DNA from: a virus
Reading direction: 5' to 3' (one strand)
IMG/VR virus record: IMGVR_UViG_3300030117_001971
Coordinates: 1 to 31,202 of that record
DNA: 31,202 nt
Position 1 is the stretch's first letter; each line of letters starts with the position of its first letter. The notes beneath the pieces are model-generated. The model was not told where the DNA came from. It did not search any database and was given only the letters and a program-made list of their open reading frames with translations. The translations under genes and the position numbers were made by a program. This document shows, one piece after another, positions 2,798 to 30,381 of the stretch.

Positions 2798-2846
2798 TAA
2801 ATAATTAATACTTTATTAACAATAACTATGTTAATATCTTTTTATT

Positions 2847-2873
2847 TTTGTAAAGTTATTTTAATTATATTTG
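2847..2873 (+). promoter_or_regulatory. Rightward early promoter candidate
   Basis: A TATATTTG box (2866-2873) lies 16 bases before the ATG at 2890. A TTTG at 2847-2850 could be the -33 element, but the 15-base spacer is shorter than usual, so the upstream half is uncertain. It would drive the small regulator and the replication genes, divergent from the leftward promoter. Confidence 0.45.
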
Positions 2874-6345: not shown

Positions 6346-6860
6346 ATGACTACTTAAATAAAAGTTATCAGAATTTGTTAGATATATCTAAGCGTATAAC
6401 TAGCAATAGGTATCCTGACTATGAAGATTTGTTACACGAAACAATATTAGCTTTATATAATATAGATAAAGAAAAAATTAAAATAATAATAGAAAAAAAA
6501 CAACTTACTTTTTACATAGTTAGAATAATGCTAAATCAATACCATAGTAATACAAGTCCTTATCATAAAAAATATAGAAAGCAATACAACGAAAAACAAT
6601 TAAAAGAATTTTATATTTATACTAAAGAGCCTTTGACTAAAGAAAAGATGAAGAAGTTAGAGGAACAAGAAGATAGGTTACAATGGATAGAGGAAAAGTT
6701 AAAACATTTAAGCTGGTTTGATGTAGAGGTATTTAAGATATATTATAGAGAAAATTACAGTTTAAATACAATGAGTAAAGCAACAAAGATAAATAGAAGT
6801 ACATTAGGGAAGTCAATTAGGTTTATTAAAAACTTTTTAAAAAATGAAAAACAAAAGTAA
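6333..6860 (+). CDS. Sigma-factor-like protein, candidate late-gene activator
   Basis: This 175-residue protein has the layout of a small sigma-70-related factor. The N-terminal part contains ISKRITSNRYPDYEDLLHET, as in sigma region 2. A basic linker follows (about 75-110). The C-terminal region about 120-170 (LSWFDVEVFKIYYRE, then MSKATKINRSTLGKSIRF) reads as a region-4 helix-turn-helix. There is no ATG near the 5' end; the TTG at 6333 is the best start. Placed just before packaging genes, it could direct RNA polymerase to the late promoter motif seen four times downstream. That link is inference; the sigma-like fold itself is moderately supported. Confidence 0.6.
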   Translation: MEKLNDYLNKSYQNLLDISKRITSNRYPDYEDLLHETILALYNIDKEKIKIIIEKKQLTFYIVRIMLNQYHSNTSPYHKKYRKQYNEKQLKEFYIYTKEPLTKEKMKKLEEQEDRLQWIEEKLKHLSWFDVEVFKIYYRENYSLNTMSKATKINRSTLGKSIRFIKNFLKNEKQK

Positions 6861-7528: not shown

Positions 7529-8034
7529 TGAAAATAGAAAAAGTTAAAATAGCAGAATTAAATCCTGCCGAGTATAACCCTAGAAGAATGACTAACAAAC
7601 AATATGAGGACTTAAGAAACTCATTAGAAAAGTTTGGTTTAGTTGATCCTATAATAATAAACGCAGATAATACAGTAGTTGGTGGTCATCAACGCTTACG
7701 AATAATGAGAGAAATGGGAGCAGAGCTTGTGCCAGTAGTTAGAGTAAATCTATCTAAAGAAGATGAAAAAGAATTAAATATAAGGCTAAACAAAAATTCA
7801 GGTGAATTTGATTTAGATATATTAGCTAATAATTTTGAAGTAGATGAGTTAAAAGATTGGGGTTTTAAAGATATTGAACTTGGTTTTAATACTGATAAAA
7901 TACAAACAGATTTATCTGATTCAATAGAATTACAATACAAAATAGAAGTAGACGTAACTTCTGAAAAAGAACAAGAACAATTATATAATGATTTAACTAA
8001 CAAAGGATATATATGCCGAATTTTAACATTATAA
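7528..8034 (+). CDS. ParB N-terminal-domain protein
   Basis: Residues 1-115 form a ParB/sulfiredoxin-like domain: an early NPAEYNPRRM, LEKFGLVDPIIIN, and the core VVGGHQRLRIMREMG. The C-terminal tail (about 130-168, YKIEVDVTSEKEQEQL) is a small alpha-beta segment like the end of phage ParB-methyltransferase proteins, but no methyltransferase domain is present. In phages such proteins commonly accompany DNA modification genes and may act as nucleotide-dependent DNA clamps or guides. The gene overlaps the ATPase-Mom gene by 22 bases, which strongly suggests a joint function. Plasmid-type segregation is unlikely because there is no ParA. Confidence 0.85.
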   Translation: MKIEKVKIAELNPAEYNPRRMTNKQYEDLRNSLEKFGLVDPIIINADNTVVGGHQRLRIMREMGAELVPVVRVNLSKEDEKELNIRLNKNSGEFDLDILANNFEVDELKDWGFKDIELGFNTDKIQTDLSDSIELQYKIEVDVTSEKEQEQLYNDLTNKGYICRILTL

Positions 8035-9101
8035 AAGAAGTTAAACCTAAAAAGACATTTAGGGTTAGCTCAGTTATGGGTAAATTTGATTTACAAACTG
8101 AACATATTAAAGAACAATTTATAGGAGATATAGATTTAAATGATGAATGGCAAATAGGTTGTATAATTGGAAGTAGTGGCAGTGGAAAGACCACAATAGC
8201 AAAAGAGTTATTTTCTGAAAGTTATATAACTAATTTTAAATATGAAGCTGAAACTATTTTAGATGATATGCCTAAAGAAAAAAGTGTAGATGAAATTACA
8301 AGAACTTTTAATAGTGTTGGTTTTTCTTCTCCACCAAGTTGGTTAAAACCTTATTCAGTTTTATCTAATGGACAAAAGATGAGAGTAGATTTGGCAAATG
8401 GTTTATTACAAGATAAAGAGTTAATGGTATTTGATGAATTTACAAGTGTAGTAGACAGGAATGTAGCACAAATAGGAAGTTATGCGGTACAAAAAGCTAT
8501 TAGGAAAACAAAAAGAAAATTTATAGCAGTTAGTTGTCATTATGATATTGTGGATTGGCTTTTGCCTGATTGGATATTTAATACTGATTCTATGACTTTC
8601 CAAGATTTGAGAAAGCAAAAAAAAAATAGACCAGAAATTAAATTTGAAATATACCAAACAAGAGATAAATCAGTATGGAGAATGTTTGCTAAACATCATT
8701 ATTTAAGTCATAGTCATAATAACGCTGCTAATGTTTATGTGGCTTTTGTTAATGAACAGTTAGCAGGTTTTTATTCTGCTTTACCTTTTCCACATCCAAT
8801 AGTTAAAAATATTTATAAAGGACATAGATTGGTTGTTTTGCCTGATTATCAAGGTATAGGAATAGGATTAAAATTAAGAACAGAAGTTGCTAAACATTAT
8901 GTGCAGAAAAAGAAAAAAAGATTTGTAGCAACAACTTCACACCCTGCTATTATATATGGTTTAAAAAATAATCCAAATTGGATATTAACAAGAAAAGGCA
9001 GATTAAGTGCAGGTAGTAAAACAGGTAAAATACAAAATAAAAATGTAAAAGGAAGTACATCAGCAAATAGAATAACCACAAGTTGGGAGTATAAATTATA
9101 A
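8013..9101 (+). CDS. ABC-type ATPase fused to Mom-like GNAT acyltransferase
   Basis: This is a two-domain protein of 362 residues. Residues about 40-200 are an ABC-type ATPase: Walker A GSSGSGKTT (53-61), signature LSNGQ (117-121), Walker B LMVFDE (137-142), and a switch histidine in SCHYD (176). There is no membrane segment, so it is not a transporter. Residues about 205-362 are GNAT-like: HHYLSHS (228-234), the acyl-CoA-type loop YQGIGIG (279-285), and TTSHPA. The HHYLSHS and SHPA surroundings recall phage Mu Mom, which converts adenine to a carbamoylmethyl derivative. The fusion, with ParB overlapping upstream, suggests an ATP-driven hypermodification enzyme that shields phage DNA. The ATPase and GNAT calls are strong; the Mom-type activity is inferred. 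Confidence 0.8.
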   Translation: MPNFNIIKEVKPKKTFRVSSVMGKFDLQTEHIKEQFIGDIDLNDEWQIGCIIGSSGSGKTTIAKELFSESYITNFKYEAETILDDMPKEKSVDEITRTFNSVGFSSPPSWLKPYSVLSNGQKMRVDLANGLLQDKELMVFDEFTSVVDRNVAQIGSYAVQKAIRKTKRKFIAVSCHYDIVDWLLPDWIFNTDSMTFQDLRKQKKNRPEIKFEIYQTRDKSVWRMFAKHHYLSHSHNNAANVYVAFVNEQLAGFYSALPFPHPIVKNIYKGHRLVVLPDYQGIGIGLKLRTEVAKHYVQKKKKRFVATTSHPAIIYGLKNNPNWILTRKGRLSAGSKTGKIQNKNVKGSTSANRITTSWEYKL

Positions 9102-9500: not shown

Positions 9501-10620
9501 TGCTAGTACAAGAATTGTAGTTAATCAGGGTGGAACAAGAAGTAGTAAGACATATAGTTTAGCACAATTAATAATACTTAAAGCATTACAATCAAAGGGT
9601 AAGGTATATACTATTTGTAGAAAAACATTACCTGCTCTTAAATCTTCTGCATATAGAGATTTCTTTAATATATTAGAATCACATAATTTATATAATCCTG
9701 ATAATCATAATAAGTCAGAACTTACATATAAGTTAAATAACAATACAATAGAGTTTATTTCAGTTGACCAACCTGCTAAAGTTAGAGGTAGAAAAAGGAA
9801 CTATGTTTGGCTAAATGAGGCTAATGAGTTTAGCTTTGAGGATTGGGTACAATTAACACTAAGAACAACAGAAAGAATATATTTAGATTTTAACCCCTCT
9901 GATCCTTATAGTTGGATATATGATAATGTAATGAATAGAGAAGATTGTACTTTTATTAAATCAACATATTTAGATAATCCTTTTTTACCTGATGAAACAA
10001 TAAAGGAAATAGAAAGGCTAAAACAATTAGATAGTAATTATTGGCAGATATATGGATTAGGTGATATGGCTCAACCTACTGAAACTATATTTAGACAGTT
10101 TGAGATATGTAACAATATACCAACAGAATCAACGCTAATAGCTTTAGGTATGGACTTTGGTTATTCTAATGATCCTACTGCAATAGCAGAAGTATATAAG
10201 CTCAATGATGATTTATATATTAATGAATTGTTATATGCTAAAGGTTTAACTAATCAAGACATAGCAAACAAGTTAAGGGAATTAGGTATAACAAGACAGA
10301 CAGAGATTATAGCAGATAGTGCAGAACCTAAATCAATAGAAGAAATACATAGATTAGGATTTAATGTAAAACCTGCAAAGAAAGGAGCAGATTCTATAAA
10401 TATGGGTATTGATGTATTAAGAAGATTTAAAATACATATAACAAAGAATAGTACAAATGCTATTAATGAATTTAAGTATTATAAATGGCTAGTAGATAAG
10501 AATGGTAAGGTAATAAATAAACCTGCTACAAATCAATTAGACCACCTTATAGACGCTATTAGATATACTGCTTTAAATAAGTTAACTACTAATTATAGTG
10601 GTAAGTATTACATATTATGA
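9445..10620 (+). CDS. Terminase large subunit
   Basis: This is the packaging motor ATPase and nuclease, 391 residues. The ATPase has a Walker A-like GGTRSSKT (29-36) and a Walker B YVWLNEANE (120-128, catalytic E). The C-terminal RNase H-like nuclease shows GMDFGYSNDPTA (D237), IIADSAEP (D291) and QLDHLIDAIRY near the end, giving three acidic residues. Length fits the compact Terminase_3/PBSX-type group. No ATG exists near the start; TTG codons at 9445, 9451 and 9460 are candidates, all inside the small-subunit gene, so translation is probably coupled. The stop overlaps the first late-promoter-like motif. Confidence 0.92.
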   Translation: MKLKSLNLKGTVVLQKNLNASTRIVVNQGGTRSSKTYSLAQLIILKALQSKGKVYTICRKTLPALKSSAYRDFFNILESHNLYNPDNHNKSELTYKLNNNTIEFISVDQPAKVRGRKRNYVWLNEANEFSFEDWVQLTLRTTERIYLDFNPSDPYSWIYDNVMNREDCTFIKSTYLDNPFLPDETIKEIERLKQLDSNYWQIYGLGDMAQPTETIFRQFEICNNIPTESTLIALGMDFGYSNDPTAIAEVYKLNDDLYINELLYAKGLTNQDIANKLRELGITRQTEIIADSAEPKSIEEIHRLGFNVKPAKKGADSINMGIDVLRRFKIHITKNSTNAINEFKYYKWLVDKNGKVINKPATNQLDHLIDAIRYTALNKLTTNYSGKYYIL

Positions 10621-10645
10621 ACAAAAACAACAATTTTATATTTAT
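10616..10645 (+). promoter_or_regulatory. Late promoter-like motif, copy A
   Basis: TATGAACAA (10616-10624), 13 bases, then ATATTTAT (10638-10645), ending 5 bases before the ATG of the tail assembly chaperone gene. The same two boxes with the same spacing occur at three other late genes. If transcription starts a few bases downstream, the message would be leaderless or nearly so. Confidence 0.55.
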
Positions 10646-10650
10646 AACAA

Positions 10651-11232
10651 ATGGCTAGAGAGCAAATACAGGTTATAGTACCTACTGATTGGAAAGATAT
10701 TACTATTGCAGAGTATCAAAGATATTTACAATTAGCAAAGACAAGAAGAAAAACAAAAGATGATGAGATTATTGCTATGTTTTGTAAAGTGGATAAAGAC
10801 CTTATTAAAAAGGTAAAACTTAAAGATAAGAAAGTATTAGTAGATAAAATAAACAAATTTGTAAATAGCAAAAATGAAAGAGAGTTAAAGAAAAGAATAA
10901 AGTTTAAAGGTAAGCAATATGGCTTTATACCTAATTTAAGCAAGATAACAACAGGTGAATTTGTTGATATAGAGGAATACGGAAAAGATATAAATATAAA
11001 CTTACACAGAATAATGAGTGTGTTGTATAGAGAAGTAGATAGAGAAGTAGGTAAGTATTATAGTGTAAAACCTTATGATCCTGATGAGCTTGAAATAGAT
11101 AAGTTTAAAGATTTACCAATGAGTACAACACTATCTGCGATAGATTTTTTTTTTCGTTTAGGGAGAAATTTATTGGAAGATTTAAACAATTATTCGAGGG
11201 AGGTAGTGAAGAACAAGAAGATAAAACACTAG
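10651..11232 (+). CDS. Tail assembly chaperone, short (zero-frame) product
   Basis: This 193-residue protein resembles the tail assembly chaperone of Bacteroidota siphophages: TDWKDITIAEYQRYLQL near the start, GFIPNLSKITTGEFVDIEEY in the middle, IMSVLYREV, then the hydrophobic STTLSAIDFFFRLGRNLL. A run of ten T at 11145-11154 lies in this last part. A long open -1 frame begins there and continues to 11396, as in lambda G/GT-type genes. The short form would be the main product and the frameshifted form the minor one. It is the first gene after the terminase and carries its own late promoter-like motif. Its distance from the tape measure gene (17568) is unusual for a chaperone. Confidence 0.65.
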   Translation: MAREQIQVIVPTDWKDITIAEYQRYLQLAKTRRKTKDDEIIAMFCKVDKDLIKKVKLKDKKVLVDKINKFVNSKNERELKKRIKFKGKQYGFIPNLSKITTGEFVDIEEYGKDININLHRIMSVLYREVDREVGKYYSVKPYDPDELEIDKFKDLPMSTTLSAIDFFFRLGRNLLEDLNNYSREVVKNKKIKH

Positions 11233-11396
11233 CAGGAAAGTGGGGTTGGTATAATGTAATATTTGGTTTAGCTAATGACAATATACTAAATGTAGAAAAG
11301 ATTACTAGAACAGAAATAGCTTTAGTGCTTACTTATTTAAGTTACCAACAAGATAAAGGTAATGTAGAAAAAAATAATTATAATAAATTTAAATGA
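11145..11396 (+). CDS. -1 frameshift extension of the tail assembly chaperone
   Basis: At the T10 run the zero frame reads GAT TTT TTT TTT CGT; shifting back one base gives TCG TTT AGG GAG, which stays open to a TGA at 11394-11396. The extension adds about 80 residues to the first 168, giving a protein of about 248. It contains FIGRFKQLFEGG, KWGWYNVIFGLAND and IALVLTYLSYQQDK, coherent protein-like sequence without its own start codon. The stop overlaps the next ATG (11393), as expected of a translated frame. A miscounted homopolymer would instead make this one continuous gene. Confidence 0.7.
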   Translation, partial: FFFSFREKFIGRFKQLFEGGSEEQEDKTLAGKWGWYNVIFGLANDNILNVEKITRTEIALVLTYLSYQQDKGNVEKNNYNKFK

Positions 11397-11902
11397 TAAC
11401 ATATAAAAACATAATAGACGATTTTAACACAATAGCTACTAATCATTTTTTGATTAATTCTTTTCATAGTGGTATGCTAGATGAAGTTGATATAAACAAA
11501 TTAGACCAATCAGATTTTCCTATATTATATGTAGAGCCAGGTAACACTAATATAGATAAAGGCGTATTAACTTACACTTTTACTGTATTTACTATGAACA
11601 AAATAAAAGAAGATTTAAGTAATAGAGAGGAAGTATGGTCTGAAATGTTACAAATAATGCAAGACATTATAGCAGAGTTTAGACAGAATCTAGCGGTGCA
11701 AACTGCTAATGATCCTGGTAAAAAATTTAGTTATGTTCCTGGTGAAGTAGTTTTAAATCTACCTATTAATGCAGAGCCTTTTACAGTTAGATTTTCTAAT
11801 ATGCTTACAGGTTGGTCTGCTAGTTTTACAATGCAAGTTAATAACCCTAATTCACTATGTGATGCACCAATAGAACCTAGTGACGAAGATAGAAATACAT
11901 AA
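11393..11902 (+). CDS. Tail terminator / tail completion-like protein
   Basis: This 169-residue protein has the layout of tail-terminator proteins: an N-terminal helix (YKNIIDDFNTIATNHFLI), then FPILYVEPG, a strand pair (GVLTYTFTVFTMN), a helix (EEVWSEMLQIMQDIIAEF), and C-terminal strands (EPFTVRFSNMLTGWSASF). The order resembles the family seen in Bacteroidota siphophages. It would cap the tail tube and join it to the head. It overlaps the frameshifted chaperone by 4 bases and the next gene by one base. The assignment is by pattern and neighbourhood. Confidence 0.55.
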   Translation: MITYKNIIDDFNTIATNHFLINSFHSGMLDEVDINKLDQSDFPILYVEPGNTNIDKGVLTYTFTVFTMNKIKEDLSNREEVWSEMLQIMQDIIAEFRQNLAVQTANDPGKKFSYVPGEVVLNLPINAEPFTVRFSNMLTGWSASFTMQVNNPNSLCDAPIEPSDEDRNT

Positions 11903-12492
11903 TGGAATTTGAAACAAAAGCATTAGAGGGAGTATTAAGTAGTTTTGGTAGTAAGCTAATAGAAAAGGCTAGAGCAAATCTAAATAAGAAAGATAAGAGA
12001 GCTAAGGGAACTCTATTTAATGAAATGAGTTACAATATAGAAAAAACTCCTACAGGTGTAAAGTTTGTAATGGACTTTGGACAAGCAGAGGACTATTGGG
12101 TGTTTGTAGATCAGGGTGTTGAGGGTGCAGGAGGTTTTAAAGGTAGTGGTAGAAAAAGAGGTCAGGGTAGTAAGTTTAAATTTGGTAGAAAACAACCACC
12201 ATTAAGAGCTATATTGCCGTGGATTAAATTAAAAGGATATAGAGGAAGAATACAAAAAGATTGGAAAAATAACAAAGGTGCAGGTAGGTTTATTAGCGAC
12301 AAATCATTTGCTTTTATTGTAGCTAGAAGTATAAAACAAAGAGGGATAGAAAGAACTAGATTTATTAGTAAGCCTTATGAAGATATGATAGATGATTTAA
12401 AACAAGATTTAACTGTGGCTATGGCAGAGGACATAGACAACTCAATAACAATAGAAGAACAACCAAAAATAGAAATAAATTTAAGTAAATAA
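11902..12492 (+). CDS. HK97 gp10-like neck / tail completion protein
   Basis: This 196-residue basic protein carries an N-terminal helix with AKG, then strands with YWVFVDQGVEGAGGF, a pattern seen in the HK97 gp10-like family (FVDQGV). A glycine- and lysine-rich loop (KGSGRKRGQGSKFKFGRKQP) and a C-terminal helix (YEDMIDDLKQDL) follow. It probably functions in head-tail joining. Position next to the terminator-like protein supports this. Confidence 0.55.
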   Translation: MEFETKALEGVLSSFGSKLIEKARANLNKKDKRAKGTLFNEMSYNIEKTPTGVKFVMDFGQAEDYWVFVDQGVEGAGGFKGSGRKRGQGSKFKFGRKQPPLRAILPWIKLKGYRGRIQKDWKNNKGAGRFISDKSFAFIVARSIKQRGIERTRFISKPYEDMIDDLKQDLTVAMAEDIDNSITIEEQPKIEINLSK

Positions 12493-12494
12493 TA

Positions 12495-13985
12495 ATGGCG
12501 AATTTTAGTATAGAACAACAACCAAGTAAATTTGTAGCCTGTAATAGTCCTTTAGTTTATGTAGTTAAAGAAAGTAGTGGGACTATAACAGGTGCAGCAA
12601 AGTTTAGATATATAGTACAAGTACAAATAAGTCAAACAAATATAGGAGCTTTAACAACTATAGCTAAATTAAAAATACATAAAAATAAAGCAGGTGTAGG
12701 TATAGTTGATGTTCATAAGATAGTTAGAACTTATTTAGAAACAACACAATATAATGCAAACTCTACAACTAATAGTATTCATAATTTAGGTATAACTATA
12801 CCTGCTAAACCTTTTTCTACAAATGTAAGTCAAGCAGTTGCTATTAGAATATTAGGTGGTTATGAAACAGCTACAAGTCAAACTGCTGCTCCAGTAGAAG
12901 AATTAACACCCACAGGAACTTATACTACAAATGTTGCAGTTGGTATTCCTGCAACAACTCCTTATACACAAACAGCAACTAATGTAGGAGGTTTAGATAA
13001 TGGAACAAATTTTCCTTTAAACTTTTATAAAAATGATACTACTAATGAAGATGATTATAGTTTTTTAACTAATGCTCCAACTGTCCAATTTGTTAGAGGT
13101 AGTAGTACAAGTGCAGATAATGTAGATGAAATGACTATTTGTTTTAAACAGGGTGATGACGATTCAGGTAATAGTAGTATAATAACTGTTGGTAAAAAAA
13201 TAAATTATATAGCAATACAGTATTTTAATGAAAATGGAAATCAGATAGCAGGTACAACTGGTGGAGATTTAATACATTTTTTTATTAATAGCGTAGCTAA
13301 TGGTGGTTCAACTGCTGCTGAAAGTACAAGCGTAGATAGATCAATTTTATATTTTGGTTGTGGAACTAAAAATTTAGAAACACAAAACTTAACCCCTAAA
13401 GGCAGACCTAGTAACTTTTCTAATTGGGCATATTATAGAATTTGTGGAACAACAACAGCAGATATTACTAGCAACCAACCTGACACTAGATGTACTAAGT
13501 TTTATACTTTTTATAGATATGGTGTAAGTAGAACAGGAATAGATGATAGACACCAAAGTTGCACAAGATACGATAATATTAGATTAGCTTGGCGTAATAG
13601 ATTAGGTGCATGGGATTATATGAACTTTAGAAATAAATCTATAGAAAGCGTAGATATAACAAGTGAAGAAATGGAAAGTGTACCAGGTACTTGGGATAGT
13701 AGTACATTTAGTTATAATAATTGGGATAGAGGCAAAGAAACATTATTTACAGAAGCTACTAGAAAATTAGTAATCAATTCTGATTATTTAAATGAAGATG
13801 AGGCTATATGGTTAGAGGAATTGTTTACTTCTACTGACATACAAATTATAGATGATAATAGTGCAGTATATCCTGTAATTATAACTAATAAAACATACAC
13901 TAAAAAAACAAGTGTAAATGATAAAATAAAAATACAGTACACTATTAATTTAGAATACGCTAACAAAGTAAGAACCAATAGCTAA
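12495..13985 (+). CDS. Tail structural protein, 496 aa
   Basis: This is a large beta-rich protein without signal peptide. It has Thr/Ser/Asn-rich strands (for example the region around residues 140-170) and a cysteine-bearing segment (RFCTKF-like area near 330-350), typical of virion surface or tail proteins. The C-terminal part (ESVPGTWDSSTFSYNN and YTINLEYANKV) resembles tail or baseplate proteins of flavobacterial phages, recalled without search. The 3' end overlaps the next gene by one base, and the two are probably made and assembled together. The exact role is uncertain. Confidence 0.5.
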   Translation: MANFSIEQQPSKFVACNSPLVYVVKESSGTITGAAKFRYIVQVQISQTNIGALTTIAKLKIHKNKAGVGIVDVHKIVRTYLETTQYNANSTTNSIHNLGITIPAKPFSTNVSQAVAIRILGGYETATSQTAAPVEELTPTGTYTTNVAVGIPATTPYTQTATNVGGLDNGTNFPLNFYKNDTTNEDDYSFLTNAPTVQFVRGSSTSADNVDEMTICFKQGDDDSGNSSIITVGKKINYIAIQYFNENGNQIAGTTGGDLIHFFINSVANGGSTAAESTSVDRSILYFGCGTKNLETQNLTPKGRPSNFSNWAYYRICGTTTADITSNQPDTRCTKFYTFYRYGVSRTGIDDRHQSCTRYDNIRLAWRNRLGAWDYMNFRNKSIESVDITSEEMESVPGTWDSSTFSYNNWDRGKETLFTEATRKLVINSDYLNEDEAIWLEELFTSTDIQIIDDNSAVYPVIITNKTYTKKTSVNDKIKIQYTINLEYANKVRTNS

Positions 13986-16900
13986 TGGAAGTAAGATTAG
14001 TAGCATATAGACAAACTAACAGCTCAACACCTTTTGATGTAACAGAATTTGAGCTAGATTTACAAGAAAGTCCTAATGTTGTAGTTAATTATAATTGGTT
14101 AGATTTAAAAAACCCTGACCAAAGAAAAGCTAGTTTTAGTCAAACTCTTAAACTTCCTTTTTCTAATCGCAATAATGAATTTTTTGAAAATTATTTTGAT
14201 GTTAATTTAGAATCTCTAATATATAATGTTCAAACAAAATTTCAAGCTATATTATATATTGATAGTATCCCACAATTAAAAGGATTTATACAATTAAAGT
14301 CTATATATATAAATGCAAGATTATATGAAGTGTCTTTATTTGGAAATACAGCAGACTTTTTTACTGATTTAAAGGACAAAAAACTACAAGACGCTTTTAA
14401 AAATGTAAATGATTCTACAGGGGCTATTACAGATGATAAGCAATTAGACCACAAATTAACAGTAGATAATGTGATTAATAGTTGGACTACAGGTGTTACT
14501 ACTACAGAAGATACACCAACCACTACTAACGATATAATGTACCCTATAATAGATTATGGGTTTTCTAACCAACCTCTGAGTTCTTCTATGTTTTGGTCGC
14601 CTGATGACTTACTAGATGAAATGGGTTTTACAAATGAAAATTTTACTTTTGACAATTTAGCTGTTTTAAATGCCTTAGATGAATATGGGGTTATAAGACC
14701 TAGTATGTTAAAACCTGCAATAAGAATACAAAGATTAATTAGAATAATTGCACAAAAGGCAGGTTATCAAATTAAAAGTACATTTTTAGGCATAGATGAC
14801 ACTAACGCTTCTACTCCTGTAACTGATACAAATTGGTTTAGTAGAATGTTTATGACGTTAGCTCCACAACACGAAAGAGTACAGACTAGATTTAAACTTT
14901 CTACGGATAGTAATAATGGAGCTTTTGTAGGTTTTAAAGGAACAAATACAGGTACACTATTATCAGCAGCTATAAACTTTTATGGAGGCTCTTTAGGTGA
15001 TATAGCATATCCTTATTTAGTTTTAAATAACGAAGAATACGATCCTAACAATATGTTGTTCCAAACATTATCAGCAATGCCTATGTTTGTAGATCAACCA
15101 GTAGAATTTGCACCAGGTATATTTTTTCAAAATCAAGACTTAACAGGTCAAGATACTTTGTTGCCTAGTGGTCAAGTAGAAGTAGAAACAAAATTTACTA
15201 TAGTAATACCAAATCAATCTACATCTGGCTCTACAATAGAATCTATTGAGTGTTTTGCTCAATGGAGAAGTTATGAGGGAAACTCTTACGCTTTAGATAC
15301 TCAAAGTATAACATTAACTCCAGGAACTCACGAATTAACTTTTGTAAGTCCTATACCTACAGGTACAGGCTTTGGTTGTTATTTAGTTGTATTTTTTAAC
15401 AATGCTGAAAGTCCAGATAATTTATTAACTCAAACTTGGATTCCTATTATAAGCAATTTATCTGTTCAAAGTTTAGGTAATGGTCAAGTAGGTATGTTTA
15501 ATGGTTTAGAAAAAGGAGAGGTAAGTATGTTTTATAATATGCCTGATATAACACAAGCAGACTTTGTAAAAGACTTAGTAAATAGATTTAATTTAATTAT
15601 TAAAACTGATCCTGATAATGAAAAACTATTATTAATAGAGCCTTACCAAGATTACATAAATGCAGGTACTACTCTATATTGGACTGATAAATTAGATGTA
15701 TCTAAAGAGCAAGTTATTAAATCAACTAATGAATTACAATCAAAAGTATTAAAGTTTAAAGATTCAGAAGATAACGATTTTTTAAATCAACGTTATACAA
15801 GTCAACAGAACGTAGTTTATGGTCAAAGGACTAAACAAATGAATAATGATTTTTCTAATGGTGATTTTGAAAATTTTAGTGTAATGTCACCTTTTATTGC
15901 ACAGGGAATACCACAATGGGGTAATACAGGAATTAACGGAGCTATGCCTAATCAAGACGTTGCTATTGCTTATAATTTTGGTGCTGAATTAAATGAGGGT
16001 AGCAAACCTTTATCTGATTTAAAACCGAAACTATTTTACTATTCAGGAACTCCAGTAGAATTTACAGGAACTAATCCTGTTACTAATAATTCTTATAAAT
16101 TTGCTATATACTCAAATGCTATAATATCAAGTATTTTAACTGGATTACAGTTTTATAAATTTTCAAATCCTAGCACACCAACTACAAATAAATTTCCTTT
16201 ATGTACTCAATACAATTTAGACAATTTAAATACTGGTGTAGTATCTAACACAAAAATACTTAATTGGACTTATTATAGTCCTAATTTTAATACAGGTTTT
16301 TGTTTTAATTACTTTGGTAATACACCAAGTTTAAAAGGATATTATAATGAGTATTGGTCGCAATATATAAATGAAATATACGATAAAGAAGCTAGAATAA
16401 TGGATTGCTATATGTATTTATCTCCAGAAGATATACGAAGTTTTGAAGGCTCAGGATTTCAAAATACATACTTTATAAAAAATACTTTATGGAGAATTTT
16501 AAGTGTAGATAATTATTTAGTAGGTGGAAACAAATCTACAAAAGTAAAATTAATAAAGGTAATAGAAAAATTAGAAACAAGTTGTGACGCTATATTTACT
16601 GTTTTGGATTCAGGTTTAATGTCTTGGACAGATAGTGCAACAGGATTAAGCACAACTATTACTAACGAATGTTGCACACAACAAAATCCTGACTGGGTAT
16701 TTGTAGAAACCAATTCTACTACAGGGGTAGGGGATTGTTATTTTACACAAACCAATACAGATTTTACTTTTGGTGGTGTAGATTTTGATGACCAGTTATT
16801 TGGTCAGACTGAACAGCAACCTATGTTAATAAACAATACAAATAATAATAGCTATATACCTGCATTAATGCCCAATATAGAAAATAACTTTTCTATTAAT

Positions 16901-17419
16901 GCTATGGGTAGAGATACACAAATGACACGTTCTATTACTATTTATGCTCAAGCAACAAGTTTTGATAATTCTACACAATATGAATTCACAAATAATAACT
17001 ATACACGAAAAATGTTATTACTACCACCTTTAAGTATGGTAGATGTTAGAGTAACTTTATTAGGTACTGTTTTAGACGGTACAAATAAAGGTAAAGTAGG
17101 AACATTTATATATTTAACTTTATTAGTTAATAGAAGCTCTCCACCAAGTTTTGTAGGTACAGCAGGGGGTAGTTTAGACCATTCTACTAAAGATTCAGCT
17201 TTTAGTACACCTACTGTAAATATTACAAACTTTGATAGTAAAGGTTTTTGGAAGCCTTTAATAATTGGTGGTGCAGATGAACAGGTTATGTGGACAGCAA
17301 AGATTGAATTATTAACCCAACCTGTTGGGAATGATGATACAAAAATATCATTAAGTGCAATATTCCAAAATGGAAATAGAATATTATTTGAAGACTTAAC
17401 ATTTTTATTATGGAATTAG
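13985..17419 (+). CDS. Large tail/baseplate protein, 1144 aa
   Basis: This is the largest gene of the window. The N-terminal part (about 1-130) begins with beta strands and contains LKNPDQRKASFSQTLKLPFS and VSLFGNTADFF, a pattern found at the start of tail hub or baseplate-type proteins of Bacteroidota phages. The middle contains FVKDLVNRFNLIIKTDPDNE, like the phage-tail hub fold that follows host-envelope proteins. The C-terminal third is Thr/Asn-rich, with a Cys pair (NECCTQQ) and repeated beta segments. It probably forms the tail tip, hub or fibre-attachment complex. Host recognition could reside in the variable C-terminal part. Confidence 0.55.
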   Translation: MEVRLVAYRQTNSSTPFDVTEFELDLQESPNVVVNYNWLDLKNPDQRKASFSQTLKLPFSNRNNEFFENYFDVNLESLIYNVQTKFQAILYIDSIPQLKGFIQLKSIYINARLYEVSLFGNTADFFTDLKDKKLQDAFKNVNDSTGAITDDKQLDHKLTVDNVINSWTTGVTTTEDTPTTTNDIMYPIIDYGFSNQPLSSSMFWSPDDLLDEMGFTNENFTFDNLAVLNALDEYGVIRPSMLKPAIRIQRLIRIIAQKAGYQIKSTFLGIDDTNASTPVTDTNWFSRMFMTLAPQHERVQTRFKLSTDSNNGAFVGFKGTNTGTLLSAAINFYGGSLGDIAYPYLVLNNEEYDPNNMLFQTLSAMPMFVDQPVEFAPGIFFQNQDLTGQDTLLPSGQVEVETKFTIVIPNQSTSGSTIESIECFAQWRSYEGNSYALDTQSITLTPGTHELTFVSPIPTGTGFGCYLVVFFNNAESPDNLLTQTWIPIISNLSVQSLGNGQVGMFNGLEKGEVSMFYNMPDITQADFVKDLVNRFNLIIKTDPDNEKLLLIEPYQDYINAGTTLYWTDKLDVSKEQVIKSTNELQSKVLKFKDSEDNDFLNQRYTSQQNVVYGQRTKQMNNDFSNGDFENFSVMSPFIAQGIPQWGNTGINGAMPNQDVAIAYNFGAELNEGSKPLSDLKPKLFYYSGTPVEFTGTNPVTNNSYKFAIYSNAIISSILTGLQFYKFSNPSTPTTNKFPLCTQYNLDNLNTGVVSNTKILNWTYYSPNFNTGFCFNYFGNTPSLKGYYNEYWSQYINEIYDKEARIMDCYMYLSPEDIRSFEGSGFQNTYFIKNTLWRILSVDNYLVGGNKSTKVKLIKVIEKLETSCDAIFTVLDSGLMSWTDSATGLSTTITNECCTQQNPDWVFVETNSTTGVGDCYFTQTNTDFTFGGVDFDDQLFGQTEQQPMLINNTNNNSYIPALMPNIENNFSINAMGRDTQMTRSITIYAQATSFDNSTQYEFTNNNYTRKMLLLPPLSMVDVRVTLLGTVLDGTNKGKVGTFIYLTLLVNRSSPPSFVGTAGGSLDHSTKDSAFSTPTVNITNFDSKGFWKPLIIGGADEQVMWTAKIELLTQPVGNDDTKISLSAIFQNGNRILFEDLTFLLWN

Positions 17420-17583
17420 AAAAATACATAAAAGAGGTAGGAAAACTTATGCCTATATCATTAAACCTTTTAACAGAGCTAGAGGCAAGTGGTAATAAAT
17501 ACGCTTTTGAAACAGGATCAGAAGAATACCCTACAACAATTAGAGAAACATTTAAAAAATTAAAATTATGGCAGAAAAAGTAA
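17410..17583 (+). CDS. 57-residue hypothetical protein before the tape measure
   Basis: The ORF starts inside the end of the tail protein gene (10-base overlap) and ends inside the tape measure gene (16-base overlap). The product is a charged helical protein (MELEKYIKEVGKLMPISLNL at the start). No family is recognised. Overlap at both ends supports translation. Small proteins at this position often help tail assembly. Confidence 0.5.
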   Translation: MELEKYIKEVGKLMPISLNLLTELEASGNKYAFETGSEEYPTTIRETFKKLKLWQKK

Positions 17584-19265
17584 CAATAGAAGTAGAAGCA
17601 GATGTTAAAGAGGCTTTACAAAAATTAGGTGAAATAGAAAAAGGTGTTAAAGATGTTGGTGTGACTGCAAAAAAACAAAATTCTGCAATTAAGAGTTTGT
17701 CAAATGGGTTTAAAGGTTTAGGACTTGCTATGAAAGCAGCAGGTATAGGTATAGTATTAAAGGTTGTAGATCAATTAGGACAAGCATTAATGAGAAATCA
17801 GGAAACGGCAGACGCAGTAGCTACGGCTTTTAATATGGTTGGTATAGTATTTAACAAAATAATATCTACTATAAAAACAGTATATGATAGAGTTACTGCA
17901 ACTACTGAAAATTTTGACGCTTTAGGAAGATTAATAAAAAACCTAATGACACTTGCTTTAACACCTTTAAAATTAACTTTTAATAGTGTAGCTCTAGTTA
18001 TTAAAGAAGTACAACTAGCTTGGGAAAAATCGTGGCTAGGAAAAGGTGATGTTAAAAGAATACAAGAATTAACAAATCAAATAAACGGATATAAACAAGA
18101 AATTAAAGAGGCAGGTGAGGAAGCAATAGCAGCAGGTAAAGGTATTATAGTAGATTTTAGAGAGGGTATTGGGGAAATTTCTAAAATGGGTAGAGTAGTA
18201 GTACAAGAGTTTAATAATACTTTTAAAGGGGTTACTATAAAAACAGTAAAAGATCAGGCAGAAGCAGTTGTTAAAGCTACTAACAATTTAAGTTTATTAG
18301 AAGCCAAACACGAGGGAATTATTAAACAATTTGAAACAGATGCAGAAATACAAAGAAAAATTAGAGATGATGTTAGTAAAAGCATACAAGATAGAATAAA
18401 AGCAAATGATGAACTATTAACAATATCAGAAAAACAAGCAGAAGCAGAATTAGAAGCGTTAAAAGAACAAAAAAGTGCTTTAGCTACACAATTAACTTTA
18501 CAAAAAGATAATGCAGAAATACTAGCACAAATAGAAAGATTGAATAATGCAATAACAGAAACAGAATTTAGAAAGACACAATTAGAAAAAGAAAGTGGAG
18601 AACAAAAAAATGCCTTATTAGCAGAAGAAAGAGCTAATAAAGAAGAATTAGCTAAAATAGGGGTAGATGAGGTAAAAAGACAAGAACAAGAATTTTTAAA
18701 TGAGAAAAATAGATTGTTAAGAATGGCAGAATTAACTATTAACAACGAAGAAGAATTAGCCAAGAAAAAAGAACAAATAAATATAGATTATCAAAAAAAG
18801 AAAGATAAACTAGATGCAGAGGGAACAGCAAAAGAAGAAGCATTACAAGACCAAAGAAGACAAATTATAGGAGGAGCTTTAACAGGATTAACTGCATTAG
18901 TAGGAGCAGAAACAAAAGCAGGTAAAGGGTTAGCAGTAGCACAGGCAACTATGGATACTTATGCAGGGGCAACCAAAGCTCTAGCACAGGGTGGATTATT
19001 TGGTGCTATAGGTGCTGCAGGGGTAATAGCTGCAGGTTTGGCTAATGTTAGAAGTATATTACAAACTGATATTCCTGGTGAAAGTGGTGGAGGTACTGCA
19101 CCTAATATTGATGCAGGAGTAAGTATAGAAGATACTGTACCAACAGTACCTACATTTGGAGCTATAGAAACAGAGCCACCACCAGTACAAGCATTTGTAG
19201 TAGAAAGTGATGTTAGTAGTAGTCAGGCTTTACAGAATGATTTAAACTTACAAGCAACCTTATAA
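17568..19265 (+). CDS. Tape measure protein, short
   Basis: This 565-residue, almost wholly helical protein opens with strands and helices typical of tape measures (VTIEVEADVKEALQKLGEIE). It has hydrophobic helices (LGLAMKAAGIGIVLKVV), a long coiled-coil middle rich in Glu, Lys and Ala (about 230-430), and a hydrophobic alanine-glycine end (GLAVAQATMDTYAGATKALA, then FGAIGAAGVIAAGLANV). It sets tail length and passes DNA into the host. At the usual 0.15 nm per residue this gives a tail of about 85 nm, an estimate that assumes an uncleaved helical protein. Confidence 0.75.
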   Translation: MAEKVTIEVEADVKEALQKLGEIEKGVKDVGVTAKKQNSAIKSLSNGFKGLGLAMKAAGIGIVLKVVDQLGQALMRNQETADAVATAFNMVGIVFNKIISTIKTVYDRVTATTENFDALGRLIKNLMTLALTPLKLTFNSVALVIKEVQLAWEKSWLGKGDVKRIQELTNQINGYKQEIKEAGEEAIAAGKGIIVDFREGIGEISKMGRVVVQEFNNTFKGVTIKTVKDQAEAVVKATNNLSLLEAKHEGIIKQFETDAEIQRKIRDDVSKSIQDRIKANDELLTISEKQAEAELEALKEQKSALATQLTLQKDNAEILAQIERLNNAITETEFRKTQLEKESGEQKNALLAEERANKEELAKIGVDEVKRQEQEFLNEKNRLLRMAELTINNEEELAKKKEQINIDYQKKKDKLDAEGTAKEEALQDQRRQIIGGALTGLTALVGAETKAGKGLAVAQATMDTYAGATKALAQGGLFGAIGAAGVIAAGLANVRSILQTDIPGESGGGTAPNIDAGVSIEDTVPTVPTFGAIETEPPPVQAFVVESDVSSSQALQNDLNLQATL

Positions 19266-19290
19266 ACAATTATAAACAAATTATATTTAT
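19261..19290 (+). promoter_or_regulatory. Late promoter-like motif, copy B
   Basis: TATAAACAA (19261-19269), 13 bases, then ATATTTAT (19283-19290). The motif overlaps the tape measure stop codon and ends 4 bases before the prohead protease ATG. Confidence 0.5.
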
Positions 19291-19294
19291 TAGT

Positions 19295-20308
19295 ATGAGC
19301 AAAGAAAAACTAAAAAAAGTAGAACTAATTATAGATGAAGAAGCAGATAGATTTGGTGTTGAGGCTATTAGCTTAGTTGAATTTCCTGCAATAGAAGAAA
19401 ACTGGGTATTCTTTAATAAAGACCAATTCTTAACACTAGCTAAATTAGATGAAGAACAAAAAACTTTAGTAGGTGCAGTATTAATACCTAATAAAGAGAT
19501 TCCTAGATACGATCAAGAAAAAGATGAGAAGTATATTGTATATTTTACAGAAGATACTATAAAACAAGCTCAGGAGCTATTTATGTCAAGTTTAAGAAAC
19601 AATAATGCTACTTATGAGCATAAAGTACCAGTAAAAGGAATGACTGTTGTAGAGAGTTGGATTAAAGAAGATAAAAAAAATGATAAATCAAATTCTTTTG
19701 GTTTTAATAAATTACCTATTGGAACTTGGTTTGTAAAAATGAAAGTAAACAATGATGAAATATGGAATAGTGTAAAAGAGGGTAAAGTAAGAGGATTTAG
19801 TATAGAGGGGTATTTTACAGACAGATTAATTGAAGCGTCAAGACCTAAAGATATTATAGACCTAGCAGAAAATTGTACTGACTGTCCTGATGAAGTTACA
19901 TTAGGTAAAATTAGAGATTTAATACTAGAAAATGAATTATCAGTTGTAGGAACTTTAGACGGTGAGCCTTTATTTGCTACTAAAGAAGAAGCTAAGATAT
20001 ATGCAGAAATGTTTAAAGGGTGTTCAGGTTTTCATATTCATAGAATAAATGGTGTGACTAGATATATGGCTTGTGAAACACACGAAGATAGCACTAGAAA
20101 AGAATATGTTGAAGATGAGTTTGGAAAAAAGAAAAAGAAATACACTAAAAAATATAAATATGCAGAATACGCTGCTTTTGTAAATAGACAGGCTATGGCA
20201 GTTTATAAATGGGATCAATGTATAAAGGATATGGTAAAACAATATGGTAATAAAGAAGTAGCTGCTAAAGTATGTTCTGCCATTAAAAATAGGACAGTAA
20301 AACGCTAG
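19295..20308 (+). CDS. XkdF-type prohead protease with C-terminal extension
   Basis: This 337-residue protein opens with the XkdF/S78-like serine protease pattern: SLVEFPAIEENWVFF, GAVLIPNKEIPRYD, TYEHKVPVKG (candidate catalytic His), then VRGFSIEGYFTD (candidate catalytic Ser). It would cleave scaffold and capsid during prohead maturation. Residues from about 230 form an added domain: CSGFHIH, YMACETHE, a lysine-rich stretch, and an end with WDQCIKDM and KVCSAIKN. This tail has conserved-looking Cys and His and could bind metal or be removed on maturation. It carries its own late promoter-like motif. Confidence 0.75.
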   Translation: MSKEKLKKVELIIDEEADRFGVEAISLVEFPAIEENWVFFNKDQFLTLAKLDEEQKTLVGAVLIPNKEIPRYDQEKDEKYIVYFTEDTIKQAQELFMSSLRNNNATYEHKVPVKGMTVVESWIKEDKKNDKSNSFGFNKLPIGTWFVKMKVNNDEIWNSVKEGKVRGFSIEGYFTDRLIEASRPKDIIDLAENCTDCPDEVTLGKIRDLILENELSVVGTLDGEPLFATKEEAKIYAEMFKGCSGFHIHRINGVTRYMACETHEDSTRKEYVEDEFGKKKKKYTKKYKYAEYAAFVNRQAMAVYKWDQCIKDMVKQYGNKEVAAKVCSAIKNRTVKR

Positions 20309-20311
20309 TCC

Positions 20312-20341
20312 TGTGAACAATAATTTAAGTTTAATATTTAT
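20312..20341 (+). promoter_or_regulatory. Late promoter-like motif, copy C
   Basis: TGTGAACAA (20312-20320), 13 bases, then ATATTTAT (20334-20341), with a 15-base A-rich leader before the scaffold ATG. Confidence 0.55.
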
Positions 20342-20356
20342 AAAAAAAAAGTAACA

Positions 20357-21013
20357 ATGAGTACACTAGAAAAAATCAAAACGCTTTTATCTTCTAGTAA
20401 AGAAGAAAGCAAAGAAACAAAAATGTATGCAGAAATGATTTTAGATGACGGCAGAGTACTAGCAACAGAAGATGAGCAATTTATGATAGGCTCAAAAGTT
20501 ATGGTTGTTGGTGATGACGGTGAAACTTCCCCACTAAGTGCAGGAACTTACACAATGTCTGACGGTGCTAAAATGTCTGTAGATGAAGATTCTAAAATTA
20601 TGGACTTAGGTGAGGAAAAAGAAGCAGAAGAAGTAGAGGCAGATGAAGAAGAAAAAGAAGAAATGCAAGAAGAAGCAGATGTAGCAGATTGGAAAGGTAT
20701 GGAAAAAAGAATTAAAAATCTTGAGGACGCTATTGCAGATTTAAAAGCAGATAAAGAAAATATGTCTGTGGAAACAGAAGAAGTAGTAGAAGAAGAAGTA
20801 ACTGAAGATGAAAAAGTTGAAATGTCTAAAGATATGGTAAACAGTTTAGTTGAAGAAGTAGAACACTTAAAAGCTAAAATTGTTGAACTAGAAAAAGAAC
20901 CAGGATCAGAGGGTTTTACTCACAATCCTGAAAATAATGTTAAATCTGAAAAAGTAGATTTATCTCAAATGTCTGCAACTGAAAGGGCGGCATATTACAT
21001 TAATAATAAATAA
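20357..21013 (+). CDS. Scaffold-like protein, acidic coiled coil
   Basis: This 218-residue protein is strongly acidic. The first half has a small beta region (MILDDGRVLATEDEQFMIG, then GETSPLSAGTYTMSDG). A Glu-rich run follows (about 90-115), then a long coiled coil (about 165-195, VEEVEHLKAKIVELEKE) and a C-terminal tail (LSQMSATERAAYYINNK) that may bind capsid. Position between protease and capsid, charge, and coiled coil all fit a scaffolding protein. It is 16 bases upstream of the capsid gene and probably co-transcribed from its late promoter-like motif. Confidence 0.7.
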   Translation: MSTLEKIKTLLSSSKEESKETKMYAEMILDDGRVLATEDEQFMIGSKVMVVGDDGETSPLSAGTYTMSDGAKMSVDEDSKIMDLGEEKEAEEVEADEEEKEEMQEEADVADWKGMEKRIKNLEDAIADLKADKENMSVETEEVVEEEVTEDEKVEMSKDMVNSLVEEVEHLKAKIVELEKEPGSEGFTHNPENNVKSEKVDLSQMSATERAAYYINNK

Positions 21014-21029
21014 TTAAAATTTTAAAAAA

Positions 21030-22022
21030 ATGGCGAATAACAAATATAATTTATCAAAAGAGTATCAGTTTGACATAACTGTTACTGACAACACTTACGC
21101 AGGTAAGTTAGCTTTGCCTTATGTAACTGCCGCAGTTAAAAGTCCTGACACAGTTGCAAAAGGTTATGTAAGAACAATAGACGGTTTAAATAGAAAAGCA
21201 GTAATTTCTAATTTAGGAATTAATGATCCTATTGTATCAGCAGCTTGTTCTTTTTCATCAGGTAATGATACTTCATTAACTGAACAAGTTTTAACACTTA
21301 CTGATTTAAAAGTAAATGAAGAAATTTGTAGAGGTACAGTATTTCCAACTTGGATTGGTGAAAATATGGATAGAAATGGAAACCTACCAGGAACTTTTGA
21401 AGATTTTTTATTAGCTTCAGTTGCAGGTAAAGCAGGAGCTCAATTAGAAAATGGAATTTGGGTAGCAGACGCTTCTTCAATATTTGGAGCAGGGTTTTTA
21501 TCTAATGATGGAGTATTTGACCAATCAGGTCTTAACGCTTCAGCTTGTGCTGACTTTACACAATCTACTTTAAATTCAGGAGCAGCTACTACTAATGCTA
21601 ACATAGATGATGCATTAGCAACAGTATTTGATGCTGTAGTTGGATCACATCCTGGATTAATTGATAAGCCAGGATTTGGATTCTATATGAACAACAAAAT
21701 GTATGGATTCTATGGACAGTTTTTAACTGCTTCTGGTAATGGACAAGGTATCAATATGAAAGGTTCAGACCAAGGTATTGATGGTTTAACATACTTAGGC
21801 TACCCAATTTACAGATGCCCTGGTATGCCAGATGACGCTATTGTTGCAACATATACAGAAAATATGGTATTTGGAACTAACCTAGCTACTGATTGGACAG
21901 AAGCAAGAGTTATACCAACTTATCAGTATGATGGTTCAGACAATGTAAGAATTGTTATGAACTTTGCAGTTGGTGTACAAACTGGAGTTAAAACTGACGG
22001 AGTTGTTGGTTGTATATTCTAG
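21030..22022 (+). CDS. Major capsid protein
   Basis: This 330-residue protein is the best candidate for the HK97-fold capsid subunit. It follows protease and scaffold and ends at a strong terminator. There is an N-terminal segment before a long mixed alpha-beta core, with FGFYMNNKMYGFY and YLGYPIYRCPGMPDD in the loop and strand regions typical of the P-domain. The last part (VRIVMNFAVGVQTG) is typical of the end of capsid proteins. Assignment is by context and pattern; sequence similarity among capsids is weak. Confidence 0.7.
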   Translation: MANNKYNLSKEYQFDITVTDNTYAGKLALPYVTAAVKSPDTVAKGYVRTIDGLNRKAVISNLGINDPIVSAACSFSSGNDTSLTEQVLTLTDLKVNEEICRGTVFPTWIGENMDRNGNLPGTFEDFLLASVAGKAGAQLENGIWVADASSIFGAGFLSNDGVFDQSGLNASACADFTQSTLNSGAATTNANIDDALATVFDAVVGSHPGLIDKPGFGFYMNNKMYGFYGQFLTASGNGQGINMKGSDQGIDGLTYLGYPIYRCPGMPDDAIVATYTENMVFGTNLATDWTEARVIPTYQYDGSDNVRIVMNFAVGVQTGVKTDGVVGCIF

Positions 22023-22035
22023 ATTGAATTAAATT

Positions 22036-22064
22036 AGGGGTGTGAAATACCACCCCTTTTTTTT
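22036..22064 (+). terminator. Rho-independent terminator after the capsid gene
   Basis: Stem AGGGGTG (22036-22042) and CACCCCT (22051-22057), loop of 8 bases, followed by a run of eight T. It lies 14 bases after the capsid stop. The next gene follows after 36 bases with no late motif seen, so the terminator must be leaky or a promoter is missed. Confidence 0.85.
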
Positions 22065-22099
22065 AAAAGGAATATTAATAATTAAAAAAATAAATAAAC

Positions 22100-22717
22100 A
22101 TGGCTTGTAATTTAACAAAAGGTTTATTAGTTGATTGTAAAGACCAAATAGGTGGTTTAAAGCGAATATACTTTGTTAAGTCATATTGTTCAGACATTAG
22201 AGCTAATGCTACTTTTGACGGTACAGATACTAATGTTATAGATACTGCAGGATTTGCTAACTGGGACATTCAAAGTGGTGGAGCAGTAACAGTATTTCAA
22301 TATGATTTAAGACCAAACTTATCTTCTATGACAGTAAACTTTACTAGTGATCCTGCAACAGGAACTACTTTTTTTGAACAAACTTTGTCTATTACTATGC
22401 AAAAATTAAGCGTTGCACAAACTAATGAACTAAAACTAGTTTCTTACAATAGAAGTCAGGTTTTTGTTCTTGATAACAACGATAACTTATTTTTATTAGG
22501 TATAGATAATGGAATGGATGTATCAGGTGGTACTGCAGTAACAGGAGCTGCTAAAGGAGATATGACAGGATATACTTTAGAATTAAGAGGAGAAGAAAAA
22601 GATCCTATGATTTGGATTAATGCAACTGCAGGTGTTGGCTCAGGTGGAACACCGACACCAAAATATCCATTTGACGGTTTAACTGATGAAGCAAATTTAA
22701 CTATCACTACAGGATAA
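22100..22717 (+). CDS. Major tail tube protein candidate
   Basis: This 205-residue beta-rich protein lies between two strong terminators, a sign of an abundant single-gene message. The start (MACNLTKGLLVDCKDQIGGL), the central strand series (FEQTLSITMQKLS), FLLGIDNGMDVSGGT, and YTLELRGEEKDPMIW match my recollection of tail tube proteins of flavobacterial phages. The position right after the capsid, away from the other tail genes, is unusual. A capsid decoration protein is the main alternative. Confidence 0.6.
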   Translation: MACNLTKGLLVDCKDQIGGLKRIYFVKSYCSDIRANATFDGTDTNVIDTAGFANWDIQSGGAVTVFQYDLRPNLSSMTVNFTSDPATGTTFFEQTLSITMQKLSVAQTNELKLVSYNRSQVFVLDNNDNLFLLGIDNGMDVSGGTAVTGAAKGDMTGYTLELRGEEKDPMIWINATAGVGSGGTPTPKYPFDGLTDEANLTITTG

Positions 22718-22740
22718 TTAATAAATCGTTACTCAAAAAG

Positions 22741-22766
22741 AAAGGGGCAAATTAGCCCCTTTTTTT
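22741..22766 (+). terminator. Bidirectional terminator
   Basis: Arms AAAGGGGC (22741-22748) and GCCCCTTT (22755-22762), loop of 6 bases (22749-22754), then a T run to 22766. The complement strand also shows a T-rich tract after the stem, so it would stop the short leftward gene at 22765-22893 too. Confidence 0.85.
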
Positions 22767-22893
22767 ATTTATTTATTTTTTCAATACTTATAACATCTTC
22801 AATTCTTGCGAATGATTTAATTATATATATTATTTCATCAATATTTTCGTTATATGTTTCATCTGCGAAACCTTTGATTTTTACTTTATACAT
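22765..22893 (-). CDS. Isolated leftward gene in the structural region, 42 aa
   Basis: The ORF runs leftward from ATG 22893 to TAA at 22765, against all surrounding late genes. The product starts MYKVKIKGFADETYNENID and continues with a hydrophobic-charged helix (EIIYIIKSFARIEDV). No family is recognised. It has a TATATTTG -7-type box upstream (22921-22928), and its stop abuts a bidirectional terminator, so it looks like a complete small transcription unit. It may be a moron or an early-expressed regulator. Confidence 0.5.
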   Translation of the reverse strand: MYKVKIKGFADETYNENIDEIIYIIKSFARIEDVISIEKINK

Positions 22894-22920
22894 TTTTCTA
22901 ATAATTAGTTTGTTATACAA

Positions 22921-22948
22921 CAAATATATAAAGAAAATTTAATACAAA
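22921..22948 (-). promoter_or_regulatory. Leftward promoter candidate for the isolated gene
   Basis: On the minus strand, TTTG (22945-22948), 16 bases, then TATATTTG (22921-22928), about 27 bases before the ATG at 22893. The spacer is slightly short. The same -7 sequence occurs at both early promoters. Confidence 0.45.
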
Positions 22949-22959
22949 TACTATAATTA

Positions 22960-22978
22960 TAAAATATTTTTAATAAAA
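22960..22978. repeat. AT-rich 19-bp intergenic element, copy 2
   Basis: TAAAATATTTTTAATAAAA is identical to 2775-2793. As there, it lies upstream of a leftward gene and its TATATTTG box, between that promoter and a rightward promoter. Confidence 0.45.
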
Positions 22979-22987
22979 TAAACAAGT

Positions 22988-23017
22988 TGTGAACAATATA
23001 ATGACTTTTATATTTAT
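22988..23017 (+). promoter_or_regulatory. Late promoter-like motif, copy D
   Basis: TGTGAACAA (22988-22996), 13 bases, then ATATTTAT (23010-23017), 13 bases before the ATG at 23031. It restarts rightward transcription after the terminator at 22741-22766, which is strong functional support for a promoter. Confidence 0.65.
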
Positions 23018-25825: not shown

Positions 25826-25833
25826 TTTAAAAT

Positions 25834-30380: not shown

Positions 30381-30381
30381 T

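Follow-up and report, generated by a model that had tools for sequence, protein, structure and literature searches.

The stretch of DNA analyzed here (the window) is a single virus record, IMGVR_UViG_3300030117_001971, of 31,202 bases with a GC content of about 28%. Its host probably belongs to the marine Bacteroidota, as suggested by TAHHTTTG boxes in the early region and by a related isolate, Nonlabens phage P12024L. The window carries four copies of a bipartite element, in which a left box, TRTRAACAA, is followed after a 13-base spacer (N13) by a right box, ATATTTAT, and each copy stands just upstream of the ATG of a gene that is predicted to be late. This prediction comes from gene content: the gene for the large terminase subunit (TerL) lies just 5' of copy 1, and a protease gene, a scaffold-position gene with a capsid-like gene, and an operon with the portal gene lie behind copies 2, 3, and 4, respectively. 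The early operon contains an open reading frame (ORF) for a putative extracytoplasmic function (ECF)-like sigma factor. These features, with distances in nucleotides (nt), are as follows.

6333-6860, plus strand: ECF-like sigma factor of 175 amino acids, the likely promoter reader, assigned from PHROG 1740, a structure model, structural matches, and presence in relatives.
10616-10645, plus strand: putative late promoter copy 1, TATGAACAA-N13-ATATTTAT, which overlaps the stop codon of the terminase gene and lies 5 nt from the ATG at 10651 (tail-chaperone-position gene).
19261-19290, plus strand: putative late promoter copy 2, TATAAACAA-N13-ATATTTAT, 4 nt from the ATG at 19295 (prohead protease).
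20312-20341, plus strand: putative late promoter copy 3, TGTGAACAA-N13-ATATTTAT, 15 nt from the ATG at 20357 (scaffold-position gene, then the capsid-like gene).
22988-23017, plus strand: putative late promoter copy 4, TGTGAACAA-N13-ATATTTAT, 13 nt from the ATG at 23031 (operon with portal).

A pattern search of the whole window finds exact matches at 10616, 19261, 20312, and 22988, all on the plus strand, and 100 dinucleotide-preserving shuffles of the window contain none. An earlier note on this DNA had described four exact, plus-strand copies with identical spacing that end 4–15 bases 5' of an ATG, and the search and the measured gaps agree with it. When up to three mismatches are allowed, the window contains 12 matches versus 5.4 expected. 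A one-mismatch copy at 28287 lies within a coding region and was taken as chance. The right box together with its preceding base reads TATATTTA in three copies and AATATTTA in copy 3. The nine-base left box is too narrow a definition, as the relatives are strict only for AAC[A/G]A.

Conservation of the element was examined in 160 related IMG/VR loci collected via terminase and capsid. Among these relatives, the full pattern occurs 149 times at a spacer of 13 and once at all other spacers from 8 to 19. With further loci added (2.6 Mb), the relaxed core AACAA-N13-ATATTTAT, whose box letters are fixed by the search itself, is found in 188 unique contexts on the plus strand and none on the minus strand; the same two boxes at other spacers from 3 to 29 give 0–21 contexts each. 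Among the 180 unique AAC[AG]A cores, an ATG follows within 20 nt in 151, 28 are inside the sigma gene, and 1 is cut by a contig end. The earlier note had proposed this comparison of the window and related phages with shuffled sequence, and its outcome is that the element is present in the relatives and absent from the shuffles. At the three homologous sites per genome, the boxes are retained while the spacer sequence drifts, and the middle of the spacer (positions 13–16, 18, and 19) carries little information. That the element arose by chance, or was simply inherited with AT-rich sequence, is scarcely credible. The low GC content and the shared ancestry of homologous sites would favor it, but the shuffles are empty, there is a single spacer peak, several non-homologous sites per genome share the motif, and the motif is kept where proteins are 22–38% identical.

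Because the boxes, the spacer length, the strand, and the position are kept in more than 100 related loci while the spacer drifts, the reading of these elements as phage late promoters, first put forward in the earlier note, appears strongly supported; the support comes from comparison across related viral loci and not from experiment. The elements could instead be binding sites for a phage DNA-binding regulator, a repressor or an activator, rather than the core promoter itself. A bipartite element with parts two helical turns apart would fit a dimer on one face of the DNA. However, such a role is very unlikely: neither box repeats the other, in direct or inverted form, the elements keep to one strand, and the 4–16 nt that separate them from the ATG contain no other promoter-like element.

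The protein encoded at 6333-6860 matches PHROG 1740 (RNA polymerase sigma factor) with E = 5e-4. Its structure was modeled from an alignment of sixteen homologues, with a predicted local distance difference test (pLDDT) score of 79, and the model has four-helix N-terminal and C-terminal parts. The full-length structural matches of the model are bacterial sigma factors, mostly of the ECF type, with leading probabilities of 0.9–1.0; the best Foldseek E-value is a modest 9e-3, and the others are weaker. Sigma region 4 of the model superposes on region 4 of E. coli sigmaE at 2.4 Å. A search with the sigma profile against the sequences of solved structures returned no matches. As modeled, the protein has the two-domain composition of ECF sigma factors, being short, with regions 2 and 4 and without regions 1.1 and 3. 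Homologues are present in the relatives with enough upstream sequence. Among 30 further records, a homologue is found in 21, and the remaining nine are fragments of 15–23 kb. The homologues in loci L236, L241, and L252 each have one in-frame TGA inside the match. The motif, with its fixed spacing, strand, position, and conservation, is directly observed, and it co-occurs with a protein that is modeled as a sigma fold.

The right box differs between lineages. In one group of relatives, ATATATAC or close variants (spacer 13–14) replaces ATATTTAT at all three sites, and the sigma genes of this group cluster in a single clade (support 99/98). The left box is AAC[A/G]A at all sites of the promoter classes labeled A, B, and C, as well as in P12024L. 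Classes A and C were initially treated as distinct, but they share a core and differ in flanking bases and site ancestry, and the distinction was abandoned. The capsid-like protein of the window (21030-22022) shares 97% identity with its counterparts in L082 and L083. These two loci are of a different lineage by sigma and promoter-flank type, a mismatch that points to exchange of the capsid module by recombination within this group of phages.

A more distant comparison was provided by a scan of bacterial genomes with the sigma alignment, which led to a single contig, CACVAR010000201.1, in a metagenome-assembled genome (MAG) labeled Sulfurovum; its sigma is 26% identical. The core motif was fixed before the whole assembly was searched. 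This 29 kb contig contains six exact cores, all on one strand, versus three in the other 2.57 Mb (Poisson p about 2e-12). One follows the sigma gene directly and another follows TerL; the remaining four precede the protease gene, the scaffold-position gene, and two other genes. Every copy is a short distance 5' of an ATG. Identity to the window is 38% for TerL, 28% for the protease, and 27% for the portal. The contig (L253 and L262–L263) looks like a complete phage, and its presence in this MAG suggests that it is mis-binned or that the host range of the group is wider.

P12024L (JQ823123) is the only annotated isolate found by capsid, which is 22% identical. It encodes a Sigma70_r2 protein 3' of its VRR-NUC gene, as in the window gene order, and this counterpart passes the Sigma70_r2 cutoff (25.2 versus 24 bits). 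The phage has its own element, AACAA-N15-CGTTA (N14 in one copy), which occurs seven times, only on the plus strand in that spacing, and ends 6–7 nt before an ATG. The N15-CGTTA arrangement is retained in P12024L relatives with sigma proteins that are 47–92% identical, and the distance from CGTTA to the ATG at P12024-type sites is exactly 7 nt in 14 of the 20 unique sites with an ATG in range. Flavobacterium phage FPSV-S2 (TerL also 38% identical) and Polaribacter phage P12002L have no detectable sigma of this family, and no repeated box pair was seen when their upstream regions were read. When 5-mer pairs 5' of gene starts were counted de novo, the P12024L motif emerged but the window motif did not, so the negatives of this method for FPSV-S2 and P12002L are weak alone.

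Our interpretation is that the four elements are late-gene promoters read by the phage's own ECF-like sigma factor, to which we assign a probability of roughly 0.8. Several observations weigh against it. The window protein is without a Pfam sigma match and is matched only weakly in PHROG and, by E-value, in Foldseek. The sigma clade agrees with the promoter class, yet TerL does not reject the same grouping (approximately unbiased (AU) test, p = 0.57), and co-evolution of sigma and promoter is therefore not separated from shared descent. Distant sigma-like matches in L271–L277 (22–31% identical) have no matching motif, so the pairing of sigma and motif is not extendable to every sigma-like phage protein. 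Natural recombinants were also considered as proof that the promoter follows the sigma: a quick tree put the TerL of L070 with class A, and the argument was dropped after a careful tree and the AU result.

In the proposed mechanism, the early genes, including that of the sigma factor, would probably be made from host-type promoters, which lie here:

2843-2873, plus strand: two host-type boxes, TATTTTTG and TATATTTG (TAHHTTTG), ahead of the early rightward operon with the sigma gene.

Over the whole window, TAHHTTTG is found 46 times versus 41 expected and is thus not enriched. The ECF-like sigma factor (6333-6860) would carry the host core RNA polymerase to the late sites. There, the -35 element would be the left box (core AAC[A/G]A), and the -10 element would be the right box, TATATTTAT, at a distance of about two helical turns; initiation would occur about 4–5 nt 3' of the right box. 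Binding of the sigma factor to these sites, the timing of its action, and the exact start points are what we infer from sequence.

A different reader of the same sites is conceivable. The host primary sigma could recognize them, with a phage activator bound to the left box in place of the missing -33 contact and TATATTTA acting as a weak TAHHTTTG. The earlier note held that the motif differs from the host-type boxes; it does lack the final G, but TATATTTA is otherwise a TAHHTTTG box, with a single-base difference (G to A), and it is placed where a host box would be. However, the final G is nearly invariant in Flavobacterium johnsoniae (PMC6847099) and is absent in all copies here. Moreover, the right boxes of the ATATATAC group and of P12024L (CGTTA) are unlike TAHHTTTG, and each such genome has a sigma-like gene. 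We consider reading by the host sigma unlikely.

If the phage sigma factor reads these sites, their closeness to start codons has consequences for the messages. The 8-nt -7 box of F. johnsoniae lies 4–5 nt 5' of the transcription start (PMC6847099). This geometry would place the start of the protease message at the AUG or 1 nt before it and that of the chaperone-position message 1–2 nt before it. On this geometry, both messages are predicted to be leaderless or nearly so, as the earlier note implied, starting at or within about 2 nt of the AUG, and the other two leaders would be roughly 10 nt. Leaderless messages are uncommon in flavobacteria: they make up only 5.5% in Flavobacterium psychrophilum (PMC9723704), and 87% of F. 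johnsoniae leaders are longer than 10 nt (PMC6847099).

The earlier note reported no other full match. This holds for the full pattern and fails for the relaxed core AACAA-N13-ATATTTAT, of which the window contains five versus 0.05 expected. The additional one is:

6595-6620, plus strand: candidate fifth copy (relaxed core only, AACAA-N13-ATATTTAT) within the sigma gene, where it may act as an internal promoter of the genes down to TerS/TerL.

In P12024L and the CACVAR contig, a promoter copy stands between the sigma gene and the terminase genes, immediately behind the former, which makes it plausible that the 6595-6620 core drives TerS/TerL as an internal late promoter. It could also be a coding coincidence; the ATATATAC class has ATA TTT there. 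The peptide FYIY is encoded by TTT TAT ATT TAT in 37 of 37 unique sigma genes that have it, and ATT accounts for just 28% of the Ile codons elsewhere in those genes, both counts being uncorrected for kinship.

Upstream of copy 4, the window contains a hairpin:

22737-22766, plus strand: intrinsic terminator closing the capsid operon, about 220 nt 5' of copy 4.

The earlier note had placed copy 4 directly after a strong terminator; the hairpin exists, but the two are separated by this distance and by a short minus-strand ORF. The position of copy 4 past the terminator bears on the proposal that the elements are RNA-level signals, such as a translation enhancer or a processing site, in a longer late mRNA. 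They are unusually near start codons for promoters, and Bacteroidota lack Shine-Dalgarno sites, both of which would favor such signals. In addition to the terminator, however, the restriction of the elements to a few operon-leading genes, the lack of mutual complementarity between the boxes, and the variable gap from right box to ATG (4–18 nt; mostly 4–16 in the related viral DNA), as opposed to the constant inter-box spacing of 13, render RNA-level signals highly improbable.

The minus-strand ORF (22765-22923; region to 22928) encodes 42–52 amino acids, MYKVKIKGFADETYNENIDEIIYIIKSFARIEDVISIEKINK, and has a host-type box, TATATTTG, at 22921-22928. In P12024L, small genes on the minus strand are similarly placed 5' of its late promoters (2750-2980, 5123-5365, and 25649-25945 of JQ823123). 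Behind copy 1, the tail-chaperone-position gene ends near a T run and is overlapped by an open stretch in another frame (11140-11400), resembling tail chaperones with a programmed frameshift. The ORF at 8013-9101 joins an ABC-type ATPase part to a GNAT acetyltransferase part (Pfam ABC_tran and Acetyltransf_1; PHROG 11143, unknown function). Metallophosphoesterase-like genes lie near both window ends (332-1041 and 30331-31122), the left one without an ATG at its apparent start.

Phage-encoded sigma factors for the activation of late genes are a known kind, with examples in T4 and SPO1. Late transcription in T4 uses the late sigma gp55 and a TATAAATA -10 element, has no -35 box, and needs the sliding clamp and a co-activator. 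As in T4, a phage-encoded sigma-like protein is proposed here to redirect host RNA polymerase to an AT-rich late -10 element. In contrast to T4, where TATAAATA is the sole element, the window has the right box ATATTTAT and a strict, conserved left box at a fixed distance, and its protein is modeled with the folds of both sigma region 2 and sigma region 4. The CGT-box motif SM6 of F. psychrophilum is an ECF sigma promoter (PMC9723704). The two-domain sigma and the AAC of the -35 box are shared with ECF promoters, as is the CGT in the right box of P12024L. The window right box has no CGT (only the P12024L group has CGTTA), so the window sites are said to work like ECF promoters and are not filed as typical ones; the sigma is also phage-borne and proposed to drive virion genes. 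No anti-sigma partner was identified, though no search was aimed at one. Relative to the Bacteroidota primary-sigma promoter, TTTG/TAHHTTTG (PMC6847099), TATATTTA matches at seven of eight positions, but the copies lack the final G, and the left box is AAC[A/G]A rather than TTTG.

An ECF-like two-domain form with a fixed left box and start-codon promoters in Bacteroidota phages was not found in the open literature (subscription papers lay outside the search), nor was anything on late transcription control of marine Bacteroidota phages, which appears little described. The ECF-like, near-leaderless Bacteroidota version of sigma-directed late promoters thus appears to be new. On a broader reading, late expression in a widespread group of these phages would depend on an ECF-like sigma of their own, whose promoters abut the start codon and yield leaderless late mRNAs in hosts where such messages are rare, and the specificity of the sigma/promoter pair would have changed from lineage to lineage (ATATTTAT, ATATATAC, and CGTTA). 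In our judgment, the chances that this broader reading is true are about even. The motif would serve to mark late operons in unannotated viral contigs, and the sigma factor is their likely regulator.

The closest parallel is with Nonlabens phages P12024L and P12024S (JQ823122), for whose bipartite element no description was found in the literature searched. They share with the window the order VRR-NUC, sigma, terminase and a repeated bipartite element just 5' of late-gene ATGs, and they differ from it in the N15 spacer, the CGTTAATA right box, and a capsid that is 22% identical. With its Nonlabens/Persicivirga host, P12024L offers a cultured system in which to test sigma switching and leaderless translation in a phylum without Shine-Dalgarno sites.

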